Assembly: GCA_947168815.1 (NCBI GenBank)
Contig: CAMVNG010000005.1
Location: 1-53,333 of the forward strand
DNA length: 53,333 nt
Origin: an uncultured bacterium
GTDB lineage: Bacteria; Patescibacteriota; Gracilibacteria; Absconditabacterales; Absconditicoccaceae
Direction: 5' to 3'
Shown: one piece after another, positions 47,686-52,421 of the stretch
Position numbering within the stretch: position 1 is the first letter of the stretch
How the letters are laid out: every line of letters begins with the position of its first letter
Program-made: the position numbers and the translations under genes
The notes under the pieces: generated by a model
Seen by the model: the letters and a program-made list of their open reading frames with translations, nothing else
Database searches by the model: none
Told to the model about the DNA's origin: nothing

Positions 47686-47708
47686 CCCGGGATCCAACAT
47701 CCCGGGCT
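47686..47708 (-). terminator. Terminator of the 47719 gene
   Basis: Reverse strand CCCGGGAT / ATCCCGGG around GTTGG, followed by T. It is unusually GC-rich for this genome. Confidence 0.88.
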
Positions 47709-47718
47709 GTTAAACGAC

Positions 47719-48051
47719 TCAGTTAATTCGCCGATACTGTAACCTTCGGCAAGGTCTTACACACTTAGGTGGTGGGCTTGGTACTAAGACATATCCGTCT
47801 TGTACGTTGCCTTCAACCTCTCTTAGTTCAATCCAACGGAATTCGGAGCTGGACGGTCTAACCGGGATTTGATCGTCGTCAGGAACGAGACCCATTAGGG
47901 GTGTCGTCGCCGTTAATCCCTCGGCGAAGTTGACCGTGATTTTAGGCTGATTTGAATCAACCATTAGCTTTTCCGTCTGCCTGATACAGGTCAGTGGAAG
48001 TTCCAAGAGTACAGTTAGAAGGGTGCCCGTTAAGAGGAGCCCTGTACACAT
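47719..48051 (-). CDS. Small secreted or membrane protein, GC-rich, ends in UGA
   Basis: 110 residues. A hydrophobic N-terminus (about 3-22) could be a signal or membrane anchor; the rest is polar with Pro-rich PSPPPK and a Cys/Arg-rich end. No UGA inside; the stop is TGA at 47719-47721, and a TAA follows two codons later. G+C is near half, far above the native genes. It has a TTGATA-17-TATAGT promoter and a GC-rich terminator. No family recognised; probably acquired. Confidence 0.55.
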   Translation of the reverse strand: MCTGLLLTGTLLTVLLELPLTCIRQTEKLMVDSNQPKITVNFAEGLTATTPLMGLVPDDDQIPVRPSSSEFRWIELREVEGNVQDGYVLVPSPPPKCVRPCRRLQYRRIN

Positions 48052-48097
48052 ATTTGATGAAGGTTTTTGTCGTTACGCCGTCATTGGCGCAAGTACC

Positions 48098-48126
48098 ACT
48101 ATAATCAACCTGACTTTTAATATCAA
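48098..48126 (-). promoter_or_regulatory. Promoter of the 47719 gene
   Basis: Reverse strand TTGATA (48121-48126), 17-base spacer, TATAGT (48098-48103). Confidence 0.75.
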
Positions 48127-48149: not shown

Positions 48150-48345
48150 AAAAGAAAACCCTCCATGAATCATAGAGGGTTATAGAGATTAGGAATGCTT
48201 ACTATTACACGCAATTTAAGAGAATGCCTGCTTCCAAGGCAACTCACATTCTGTCATAATCTCTAAAGATAAACCAGTTTCTTAACTCCGAATCAGCACG
48301 TACGCCATGATGTCGTTTTGAGAAAAGATTTAATTCATCTGAAGT
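48150..48345 (-). ncRNA. RNA resembling the 23S rRNA GTPase-associated centre
   Basis: On the reverse strand an 8-bp stem AGAGATTA / TAATCTCT (48184-48191 with 48257-48264) and an inner GAATG / CATTC stem enclose a segment with GAAGCAGGCAT, TTAAA and GTAATAG in the order and spacing of the L11-binding region of 23S rRNA (GAAGCAGCCAT, TTAAA, GTAATAG in E. coli). Upstream, GAGTTAAGAAAC also recalls the adjacent rRNA. It is far too short to be an rRNA, and it has a promoter-like pair (48352-48379) and a terminator. A mimic or decoy for L11 or for factors binding that centre is possible. Confidence 0.6.
48151..48182 (-). terminator. Terminator of the rRNA-like RNA
   Basis: Reverse strand AACCCTC / GAGGGTT around TATGATTCATG, then TTTCTTTTTT. 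Confidence 0.85.
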
Positions 48346-48351
48346 GATGAT

Positions 48352-48379
48352 AATATAGCAATCTATAATAAAAATTCAA
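48352..48379 (-). promoter_or_regulatory. Possible promoter of the rRNA-like RNA
   Basis: Reverse strand TTGAAT (48374-48379), 16-base spacer, TATATT (48352-48357). Confidence 0.55.
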
Positions 48380-48494
48380 TGTTAAAAAAAAGACTCACTA
48401 TTGATGTAAGTCAAATTTTTAGTGGTATTTTTAGACACGAATTAACGTGGTCCAGGAATTTGAAGAATGAATTTGAACAAAAATTAATCAATTC

Positions 48495-48743: not shown

Positions 48744-49145
48744 ATGAGTACAAAAAAAAGATGAAGACCAACTAAAATAGATGAACTTACTGTCAAGAAA
48801 TTGGAAGACTCTTTTAAGTGTTGATTCAATGTATCAGAAGCTTGTTCCAATGCTGGAATATCTAGGGAAGCTTATTACAAAAAATTAAATTCTGATCCTA
48901 AATTTCTTGACAGAATGGAGTACTCTCAGAACTTTCCATTTTTCTTTGCTAAGTCTAAAATATTTGAAGCTATGAATTCAAAAGATATTGCTTTAGCTGC
49001 TAAATATGCATTAGAGTTCTTAAAAAGAAGATCTCCAGAACGAAGTGATAAAAAAGATAATAAATTAGATTCTACTCCAAGATTCACTTCTATAGAAATA
49101 ATAGATGCTACAGGAGATAATCTTTTAGAAAACCCTAAAGGATAA
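48744..49145 (+). CDS. terS: Phage terminase small subunit-like protein
   Basis: 133 residues in code 25. N-terminal 'KKRGRPTKIDELTVKKLEDSFKCGFNVSEACSNAGISREAYYKKLNSDPKFLDRME' is the DNA-binding helix-turn-helix of TerS-like proteins (two glycines are UGA). The C-terminal part has 'SKDIALAAKYALEFLKRR', also usual. It would recognise phage DNA for packaging. No large subunit, portal or capsid gene follows, so this is an orphan, perhaps a prophage remnant or a gene used by a satellite. Confidence 0.75.
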
Positions 49146-49284: not shown

Positions 49285-50034
49285 TTATTGTAAATAATAA
49301 TTATCTGCCTTCCAATAACGATGTTGTGCTTTAATTCTTCATGTTGATAATACTCATTCCTCAATAGGAGCAACTAAAAATTGAAAGATTCAATCATGAT
49401 TTGCTCTGTTATCAAGATATTCCGGTAAATATATTGGAGTACAATTATTTGGGTTCTCTCATTCTTTAAATTCTTCATTTAGTTTTGATAAATTAGAATC
49501 CGTATATTTTGGATACCATCTAAATATAAAACATCTAAATTCTGAATCTCATCTCCACCGCTGTAAAACATGATGGGTATTATCCATATATTTAGTATCT
49601 AATGGTCAATTCATTGATTCAAATTCTGTGTAAACCAAACCAATATTTCATGTTAAATCTATTTCTAGATCTTGATACAATCATTGATGAGAATATATTC
49701 TTGGGGTATATTTATAATAACTATAGTTATAAATGGTTGGAATAAATTCAAATTCCTGATCTAATGGCAATTCCTCTACCAATTCAGGAGAAGGCACATC
49801 ATCAAGGGGGAATCCTTTAATTGCATCAAAATTAAAATTATCACAACCATAAAACATACAACCAAAAGATTTAAACATATCAAGTTTTACACGTTCACTT
49901 CAAAAGAAAAGTATCAGTGTAAGAATTCACCATATTCACATTAATATTAAAAGATATTTTATAGCATTCAATAATCTCTTACCTACTTCTTTGTTGAATC
50001 ATGCTTTATACCACCATGTTTGTTCTTTTTTCAT
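49285..50034 (-). CDS. Membrane-anchored paralogue 1 of the four-gene array
   Basis: 249 residues in code 25. N-terminal MKKEQTWWYKAGFNKEVGKR, then one transmembrane helix (about 27-46), then an extracytoplasmic beta-rich domain with Cys pairs, 'GENPNNC' near residue 200, and a C-terminal 'RIKAQHRYWKADNY'. Closest to the fourth copy (51559) in the middle region (GPLDTKYM, THHV / THSV). Family unknown. It is the last gene of the array. Confidence 0.8.
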
Positions 50035-50057
50035 TTCTTCAGTTTATATAAATATAA

Positions 50058-50786
50058 TTATTCATTACGATTCCAATCAACTTTTCTATATTCTGCTCTA
50101 ATCTTACCATTATTAATATCATTAGAAGGTGTTACAAACCAAAAGTAACCTTCTATTTCTAAATCCCAATCAAGATGGTGAAAAATTATAGTTTCACAAT
50201 TATTTGGATTTTCTCAATCAAAGAATTCTTTTCAATCATACCTATAATTTGATCTTGGTCGCCACCTTATAAGGTAACACTTTTCTGTATCATCTTCAAA
50301 ACTTCCTCTATAAACTGAATTTAAGTTATAGTGATATTTAACATCTAATGGTCCACTTCAAATCATATAATCTTCGTAATGCCATGCTACAGGTCATTTA
50401 ACATGAAGTTCTAAATCATAAGTCGCTGAACCAACTTGTGGTATTTTATAAAATGTAACGTTATGACTTTGTGGCTCTAATGTAACTTCTTTACCTATAG
50501 GAAGATCCTTAATGGTATCTAATTTGATTTTATCGGTTCATGCACCTAGTCTACCTTCAAGATATCTATTGTTAAAATTATCCCATCATAAAAATGTTCA
50601 TAGGACACTCATTCCTAAATCTGTTTGGATACGATTACTTCATAAAACATAAATAAGACTAAATATTCATCGTACTCAAATAATAACGAAACAAGTTTTT
50701 AGAATCTTTTTAATAATAGTTAAGAGTCTGTTTCCTACTTCTTTATTGAATCATGCTTTATACCACCATGTTTGTTCTTTTTTCAT
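50058..50786 (-). CDS. Membrane-anchored paralogue 2 of the four-gene array
   Basis: 242 residues in code 25. The first 20 residues are nearly identical to those of paralogue 1 (MKKEQTWWYKAGFNKEVG). One transmembrane helix (about 28-50), a beta-rich extracytoplasmic domain with PLDVKYHYN, 'GENPNNC' and the ending 'KIRAEYRKVDWNRNE'. The middle part is diverged from the other copies. Function unknown. Confidence 0.8.
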
Positions 50787-50808
50787 TTATTATTGTTTAT
50801 AAATTAAA

Positions 50809-51534
50809 TTAATAATGTGTTCTTAATATTGGACGTTCATGAAATTTTATATATCAAGGTTCATCATTTTTACGATCAGAAGCAAATTTAAGATATGCTA
50901 CACCTTGTTGATACGTTGGAGTCACATTTAGAATAATACAATTATTTGGATTTTCTTCTTCTAATAAATCAAAATCTATTTCACTTCGGTATCACTTTTG
51001 TGATAATCGTCTTAATAAATAGCATGATTGATCTCATGTAATAGGAGGGAAACCAATCAATTCAAATTCAGGACGATCATATTTACCATGTTTGTTCGTT
51101 CAAATATTTTCAATACCAAACGATGATATATTTCATGAAATACTAATTTCTAAAGCATTATTACCCCAACTATGATTATAACGGAATATTTTCATATAAG
51201 AATCATTAAAGGCAAGATCGTATTCTCTATCATTTATAATATTAATTTTATCGAAATTTACATTAGTTCAATATGTTAGATAATTGAAATCAGGACTTAT
51301 TCTTGGAGCTAATACGTTAGATAATATAACATCATAGGTATATCATCTTTTCACATTTTGCCGTATCATATCATAATAATCTTGGACTTTAACACTTCAA
51401 TAATATGGCACTAAAGAATATATTGTCCATCAAAGACAACAAAGAAAAATCATACAGAAGAATCGTTTACTAATTCTTAGTCCTACTTCTTTATTAAATC
51501 AAGCTTTATACCACCATGTTTCTTTTCCTTTCAT
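50809..51534 (-). CDS. Membrane-anchored paralogue 3 of the four-gene array
   Basis: 241 residues in code 25. Starts MKGKETWWYKAGFNKEVGLR, with the same anchor helix (about 25-45). The extracytoplasmic domain is the most diverged of the four but keeps 'EENPNNC' and a similar beta-rich pattern. The shared N-terminal tag and diverged heads suggest selection on the exposed part. Function unknown. Confidence 0.8.
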
Positions 51535-51558
51535 ATACTATCTTATAAAAAATAAATA

Positions 51559-52287
51559 TTATCTATCTTTCCAGAGACGATATTCTGCTTTAACCGCTCA
51601 AGTACTTAGGACTCATTCTTCTAATGGAGCAATTACAAACTGAAATAATCATTCAAAATTAGATTTGGTATTTATGTATTCAGGTAATAAGATTGGAGTA
51701 CAATTATTTGGATTTTCTCATTCCCTAAATTCTACTTCTAAACCAGAAGCATAATCTGTTCTTCAAAATCTTGGATTCCATCTAAAAATATAACATTTAT
51801 TTTCATTCCCTTCTCACCATCGTTTTGTTACACTATGAGTTTGTTTCATATATCTTGTATCTAAAGGTCCATTCATTTTTTCATACTCATGATAAACAAC
51901 AGCAACCATTCAACTTAAAGATATTTCTAAATCTCTATTATATCATCATTGAGAATATGGTTGAGGATCAAATTTATAGTATACCCAATTTCATGTCATA
52001 GGGACAACATCAAATGTTTCTCAAATAGGAAGATATTTAACATCATTATATTTTAAATTATCATCAAAAATTGGGAATCATTTTAAATTTTCTATATTAA
52101 AATTATCACATTTATAAAATATACATCAGAAAGATTCCATCATGTCATATTTTACACGATTACTTCATAAGAATAAAACTAATGTAAGTATTCACCATAC
52201 TCACATAAGAATTAAAATATATTTAATAATAACTAAGAATGCTTTTCCTGTCTCCTTTAAAGATTCTTTATCTAATCATGTTTTCAT
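51559..52287 (-). CDS. Membrane-anchored paralogue 4 of the four-gene array
   Basis: 242 residues in code 25. A shorter N-terminus (MKTGLDKESLKETGKAF) lacks the WWYKAGFN tag; the anchor helix is at about 22-42. The exposed domain closely follows paralogue 1 (CIFYKCDNFN, GPLDTRYM, GENPNNC, 'VKAEYRLWKD'). It heads the array, with a 134-base gap to the upstream gene that could hold the promoter. Confidence 0.8.
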
Positions 52288-52421
52288 AGTATTTATAACA
52301 TAATATAAATTTAAATAAGTATATATATATCTAGATTTTTCAAAAATTGAGATACTTTTTTTATCAGTATCCCAATTATAGTTCATATTTTATATTTTTC
52401 AAATTATCAATAGGTATTTAT

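Follow-up and report, generated by a model that had tools for sequence, protein, structure and literature searches.

A small intergenic RNA and its surroundings

We analyzed a stretch of 53,333 nucleotides, hereafter the window, on contig C5 of a 1.29 Mb assembly in 18 contigs. TGA encodes glycine in this genome, as FtsZ, GyrB, DnaN and other long frames are open only under code 25. The genome is Gracilibacteria/Absconditabacteria-like, and both of these groups are known users of code 25 (PMC10746230). It carries a gene for ribosomal protein L11 and encodes a RelA/SpoT-type protein. No 23S rRNA was found in the assembly (the bin is 99.7% complete), and 23S sequences from the same genus or family were therefore used for comparison.

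An intergenic region on the minus strand of the window (48150-48345) is predicted to specify an RNA of about 195 nt with a 5' hairpin, a mimic of the GTPase-associated center (GAC) of 23S rRNA and a terminator. Downstream of it lies a GC-rich unit (47690-48126, minus strand; about 49% vs 30%) with its own promoter-like site and a strong terminator. The 113-aa frame in this unit has no Pfam or PHROG match, and the unit may encode either a protein or a structured RNA. A lone gene for a terminase small subunit (48744-49145, plus strand; PHROG 4102, E 4.9e-10) adjoins the window RNA and is repeated, with 97% identity, on contig C14 of this genome. Tandem paralogous genes for membrane proteins without a Pfam match occupy 49285-52386 on the minus strand, three of the four with a TWWYKAGFNKEVG start; another member of this group adjoins the second GAC-mimic copy of the genome (C7:209-922). 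A prophage location of the bacterial copies was considered and set aside: the terminase gene and one serine integrase, 2 kb from a copy in a sister species (G002:C52), were the only such features, and most neighbors are unknown or cellular.

The window RNA is preceded by a promoter-like TTGAAT-16-TATATT with a TG before the second hexamer (48352-48379, minus strand), identified by its match to the consensus; such sites were no commoner than in shuffled sequences. The transcript would start near 48345. A terminator-like hairpin at 48392-48412 on the same strand sets the window RNA apart from upstream transcription, and an intrinsic terminator, AACCCTCTATGATTCATGGAGGGTT-TTCTTTTTT (48157-48181), which is conserved in relatives, ends it. 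Terminators were commoner than in shuffles (4 vs 0.5). With a promoter-like site and a terminator of its own, the window RNA appears to be an independent transcription unit that would be expressed separately.

The 5' hairpin domain (48267-48340) has conserved internal-loop strands, YCTTnnCYC and GGMGTTAAGnAA, and a variable tip. The GAC-mimic domain spans 83 nt (48183-48265) and is closed by the stem TAGAGATTA/TAATCTCTA (48265-48257 with 48191-48183). The perfect closing stem of an earlier note on this DNA is thus present, with nine pairs rather than the eight given there. Inside it are an h43-like hairpin (48220-48245) with the loop TTGGAAGCA at 48237-48229 and with compensatory changes among relatives, a UUAAA (48215-48219) equivalent to 1082-1086 by model match and by comparison with 23S, and a remodelled h44-like hairpin (48200-48213) of three pairs and an 8-nt loop, GYGUNNNA.

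The RNA mimics the GTPase-associated center

The earlier note had proposed a small independent RNA mimicking the 23S GAC, with GGAAGCAGGCAT, TTAAA and GTGTAATAG in rRNA order. That order holds on the minus strand, and the mimicry is borne out by covariance models in both directions and by compensatory changes. A model built from 12 genuine 23S GACs had a single match up to E=10 on both strands of the 53-kb window; it covers 48254-48192 on the minus strand end to end with 45.6 bits and an E-value of 1.5e-10, which is rough since the calibration was short. For the reverse direction, model R1 was built solely from the window RNA plus four relatives that also stand alone. It found real 23S GACs at E<=1e-4 in 138 of the 242 genomes of the class, nearly always one per genome, and those matches that were compared with a 23S search lie inside 23S genes. 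Since the models match in both directions, the resemblance of the window RNA to the GAC exceeds chance. No family of Rfam 15 reached its gathering score in the window, and permissive thresholds gave chance matches only (an rnk leader with 31 bits, below its cut-off of 50).

The conserved part of the window-type RNAs is the 1060-1086 half, GUUGGCUUGG(A/U)AGCA..CAUUCUCU(U/G)AAA, in which U-A is kept at the tertiary pair 1082-1086. The other half differs from the GAC. G1087 and A1088 are lost, with U at 1088, and positions 1095-1097 vary among relatives. The combination of the h44 loop G-U-A-A-Y-A with A1088 is absent from the window type and present in the phage type described below and in two other stand-alone RNAs of the family (G031, G033). 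The window copy itself reads GUAAUA, so that the GTAATAG match of the earlier note is real for this copy; the nearest relatives have GTGTTTAAG, GTGTGCTAG and GCGTGCCAG instead, and the match is partly fortuitous because h44 is remodelled. Given this remodelling, the absence of G-A at 1087-1088 and the variability of 1095-1097, the window type may form the tertiary fold of the GAC only in part.

Relatives in the same bacterial family

A search for homologues and their neighbors, as the earlier note had suggested, located relatives in the same genome and in three others, among unrelated genes. The second copy in the window genome is split across the ends of contigs C7 and C15, which overlap by 66 bases. 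A sister species has two copies (G002:C52 and G002:C19), and two species of another genus carry the same RNA (G067:C45 and G071:C5). The layout of the window RNA recurs in the latter four, and the 5' hairpin, GAC domain and terminator are common to all close-family copies, while neighboring genes differ at every locus. The earlier observation that no ribosomal protein gene is adjacent holds for every copy.

The h43 stem reads GCC/GGC in the window, GGU/ACC in G002:C19 and GGC/GCC in the others. Across the five window-type sequences, 93% of cells are paired and four pairs have double changes; pairing falls to 35-50% when the partners are slid. Since only five sequences were compared, this compensatory evidence is supportive rather than overwhelming.

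Other stand-alone GACs, in further genera of the family, are nearer to 23S and have nearly intact cores, with 58 (G031), 66 (G033) and 60 bits (G026) under the 23S-GAC model. The G031 copy adjoins tgt, has a promoter-like TTGACT..TATATT, recognized by visual inspection, and a closing stem CTATAGG/CCTATAG followed by a T-run. In the genus g15 (G016, G033) a longer RNA contains other blocks of 23S domain II, CCAGAC..AGCTAAGG and ACCGAAGC..GGTAG; since these are retained in order, this RNA descends from 23S. At these loci (L106:5590-6260 and L110:4980-5900) we noted a compact intergenic domain II-like RNA of about 400 nt that is conserved in both species. G022 has two diverged copies. At another locus of G067 (C53; L105:4934-5003) the h43 hairpin is missing and the closing stem, TTAAA and terminator are kept. 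The distribution of stand-alone GACs within the family is patchy.

Origin of the bacterial copies

The 23S of the family reads CCAGGAGGTTTGCTTAGAAGCAGCAATCC, with U-A at 1062-1076, A1067, no extra U near 1078, and TTTGC/GCAA. The stand-alone RNAs differ from it in several respects. Every bacterial one has G1067; all have G-C at 1062-1076 except G026, which has G-U; and all except G031 have the extra U near 1078. Mismatch to the organism's own 23S at the tertiary-contact bases, which the earlier note had named as evidence against mimicry, was found in part. Compared with a same-genus 23S (L028), the window RNA keeps U1060, U1061, G1068, A1070-A1073, A1077 and U1082-A1086 and differs at 1062/1076, at 1067 (G), in the extra U near 1078 and in h44.

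No rRNA flanks surround the window RNA, and it is not closest to the 23S of its own family. The 21-nt core of most stand-alone RNAs, TTGGCTTGGAAGCAGCCATTC, is instead that of Bacteroidota 23S, where G1067 is normal. The contexts of the Bacteroidota matches read as 23S among the matches listed; a TAACGGGG signature was unusable for classifying them, as Bacteroidota 23S differs there. We propose that the RNA of the window genome probably came horizontally from a Bacteroidota-type source, to judge by these bases, and that a phage was perhaps the vehicle. A published study describes putative phages of Gracilibacteria that have matches among Bacteroidetes CRISPR spacers as well, or that group with phages of Bacteroidota (PMC10746230); a Bacteroidota-type mimic thus has a possible route into these bacteria.

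GAC mimics in large phages

A pattern for one GAC half, TTRGAAGCAGCCATNNNTTAAAG, matched 68 viral contigs. Apart from one genuine 23S and one contig without likeness to the GAC (L251), all of these matches lie outside 23S. Combining this pattern with a separate scan for the 3' half (at least 120 matches) gave at least 82 distinct stand-alone GAC mimics in large phages, each with both halves. Their plan is a closing stem, GGANGUUGGCUUAGAAGCAGCCAUCNUUUAAAGAGU, an insert, UUUGGCGUARNAGCACAC and the closing stem again. The insert lies in h44 between 1090 and 1091 and measures 51-365 nt, with a median of 136, among the matches listed. Inserts are variable and structured, and groups of them share motifs such as GGGGAAGGACAAGUACAGUUUGUA or GGCACCCCGGAAACGGUAAGGCU (L240-L313 and L314-L377 from IMG/VR; isolates L308-L313 and L418-L423). 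The phage loci matched tRNA, tmRNA and one separate GOLLD in Rfam, and the mimics themselves matched no family. The type-specific pattern of the window RNA had no match in IMG/VR. In addition, 39 and 51 phage records with blast matches included some genuine 23S contamination (short records, Paenibacillus Pd_22F), which was excluded by context.

Among the matches listed, outer-stem pairing is 8.06 of 10, vs 4.59 +/- 0.15 with shuffled partners. Covariation was examined after removing sequences at least 80% alike, which left 53 among the matches listed. The inner eight pairs of the closing stem and the pairs 1058-1080, 1057-1081 and 1082-1086 covary, and none of 2000 shuffles reached the observed value. 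The tertiary pair 1082-1086 is UA in 39, CG in 9 and AU in 4 of these 53 sequences. Because this tertiary pair covaries, selection acts on the three-dimensional fold of the GAC and not on its helices alone. The phage family shows strong purifying selection. The mimics have A instead of U at 1101. The substitution U1061A stabilizes the 58-nt GAC. All four bases occur at position 1061 in the phages, and laboratory studies of the 58-nt RNA have employed the U1061A variant (PMC10161774).

The phage mimics sit mostly in tRNA arrays, on the tRNA strand, and many start about 20 nt after a tRNA and end shortly before the next. Since they lie between tRNA genes of the same strand, it is likely that the RNA would be excised by tRNA processing. 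All 12 isolates that were checked carry both halves, and in none is the mimic annotated as an RNA: Cronobacter GAP32, Pectobacterium CBB, Serratia BF, Erwinia SNUABM_12 and Kaldavass, Xanthomonas XbC2 and XacN1, Aeromonas 4_4572, and Pseudomonas pf16, Milchi, Astolliot and UNO-G1W1.

The hosts of these isolates are Gammaproteobacteria, and the isolates carry A1067. One contig with G1067 (L305) has a gene whose relatives in the collection searched are only in Prevotella Lak phages and three other phages; by eye, L245 and L287 have genes similar to it. L262 and L239 gave no host signal. These observations are suggestive of base 1067 following the host. Three phage versions lack the insert (L237, L238, L239); all have G1067, and their layout is closest to that of the bacterial RNAs. 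The GAC seems to have been captured from host 23S more than once, because L239 is nearly identical to Bacteroidota 23S. In L237 (48-506) a phage tmRNA is followed directly by the insert-less mimic and then by tRNA-Met.

Function of the GAC mimics

The window-type and phage RNAs exist independently of 23S and L11 genes, are conserved with compensatory change and, in phages, covary in secondary and tertiary structure. They have the GAC core alone in common, through shared descent or through separate captures from 23S, and it is this core that suggests that they may work alike. By itself, the 58-nt GAC is able to fold and to bind L11 (PMC4409310, PMC10161774). Since it does so, and since the genome has genes for both L11 and a RelA/SpoT-type protein, a free copy should compete for L11. 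We propose as the more probable explanation that the window RNA is a trans-acting decoy that binds L11, a reading of its sequence and of that of its relatives. Produced as a separate transcript between its promoter and its terminator, it would fold into a GAC-like domain, a free copy of the L11-binding fold of helices 42-44, and would capture uL11, perhaps with other GAC-recognizing factors, away from ribosomes. RelA activation and normal termination both depend on L11. A phage would probably gain from altered ribosome behavior in the infected host, for example if ribosomes poor in L11 terminated differently or supported a weaker RelA (stringent) response. In the window bacterium the RNA may have been retained because it modulates L11, or as mobile-DNA cargo. 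Of the three proposals in the earlier note, the decoy or sponge fits best, although decoy action itself is our inference.

A scaffold, or a decoy that draws off some factor other than L11, would agree with the evidence just as well. As a scaffold, the RNA would aid 50S assembly or would supply a phage or cellular RNP with L11, with the L10-L12 stalk or with translation GTPases. The large, structured and variable h44 domain of the phage RNAs and the conserved 5' hairpin of the window type agree with such a role, but it comes without a known partner and the insert sequences differ widely among phages; we regard it as rather unlikely. An attacker of the GAC, such as a thiopeptide antibiotic, an rRNA-modifying enzyme or a toxin, could also be the factor that is drawn off. 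The GAC is the site of thiostrepton and nosiheptide, a resistance enzyme binds and methylates GAC RNA of 58 or 29 nt (PMC4409310), and the phage mimics keep A1067 and A1095. Yet A1067 is a crucial determinant for thiostrepton (PMC5829649) and every bacterial copy has G, which makes an antibiotic sponge unlikely for the bacterial copies; the window-type copies vary at 1095-1097 as well. On balance we doubt this role.

The two explanations that would deprive the RNA of a trans-acting function fare worse. A decayed or transposed 23S fragment, which the earlier note had raised, would account for the 23S-like sequence and for the domain II blocks that the g15 copies keep in order. Against it stand stand-alone relatives of common ancestry with compensatory changes, the conserved 5' hairpin and terminator, the fact that two sister species each have the RNA twice, the departure from the family's own 23S, and a phage family with covariation and strong purifying selection. 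We hold it to be very unlikely. The earlier note had also suggested an L11 leader that lost its gene, and ribosomal-protein leaders do often mimic rRNA sites (PMC10931766). An orphaned or cis-acting L11/L10 autoregulatory leader is nevertheless hardly credible, as no copy has a ribosomal protein gene beside or after it, the terminator follows immediately, downstream genes differ from locus to locus, and the L11 locus of the genome matches neither the mimic model nor the 23S-GAC model.

The bacterial copies could alternatively mimic the GAC of another organism, as a phage-spread decoy of Bacteroidota type with G1067; we put this forward as an improbable variant. It would have an epibiotic or predatory carrier act on a foreign ribosome, that of prey, a host cell or a competing phage, after its spread by phages that encounter Bacteroidota as well as code-25 bacteria, a scenario that we think equally doubtful. 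If true, trans-acting mimicry of an rRNA domain would be a weapon common to unrelated parasites of bacteria.

Relation to known RNAs

The mimics share with the 23S GAC (h42-h44, the 58-nt L11-binding RNA) the h43 loop, U1060/U1061, A1070-A1073, A1077, UUAAA 1082-1086 and a closing h42-like stem. Unlike it, they appear to be separate transcripts, with G1067 and a remodelled h44 in the window type and an h44 insert and A at 1101 in the phage type. Like the leaders of the L1, L10, S15 and S8 types they mimic a protein-binding site of rRNA, whereas they are detached from ribosomal protein genes, end in a terminator and appear to act in trans. GOLLD and ROOL are likewise large structured phage RNAs, and in L249 a GOLLD shares its tRNA array with a GAC mimic; the phage mimics give no sequence or model match to them. 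The T4 RNAs rnaC and rnaD (species 1 and 2; stable, 119-139 nt) also lie inside a phage tRNA cluster; they were rejected as relatives, as they are not GAC-like and have no GAC-model match (an 18-bit match falls inside segB). Artificial 23S GAC fragments in E. coli were free competitor GAC RNAs too, but as laboratory constructs and not natural genes. Such fragments reportedly alter UGA readthrough and the thiostrepton response. We found no evidence that ties the readthrough effect to the use of UGA for glycine in the window organism.

The window and phage RNAs together form an apparently undescribed, wider class of natural GAC mimics, with its largest branch in big phages. We know of no natural trans-acting RNA that copies a whole functional rRNA domain. 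Stand-alone GAC mimics were not mentioned in the literature searched, which was mostly without subscription journals and preprints, and an earlier description of the phage RNAs is possible. If the proposal is confirmed, many large phages engage the factor-binding center of the ribosome by RNA, a target hitherto tied to antibiotics and proteins; phage tRNA arrays have a new kind of cargo; and phage interference with the stringent response has a candidate mechanism. The phage isolates make the proposal directly testable. In the code-25 bacteria, mimics of the L11 site persist in genomes whose own 23S looks different.
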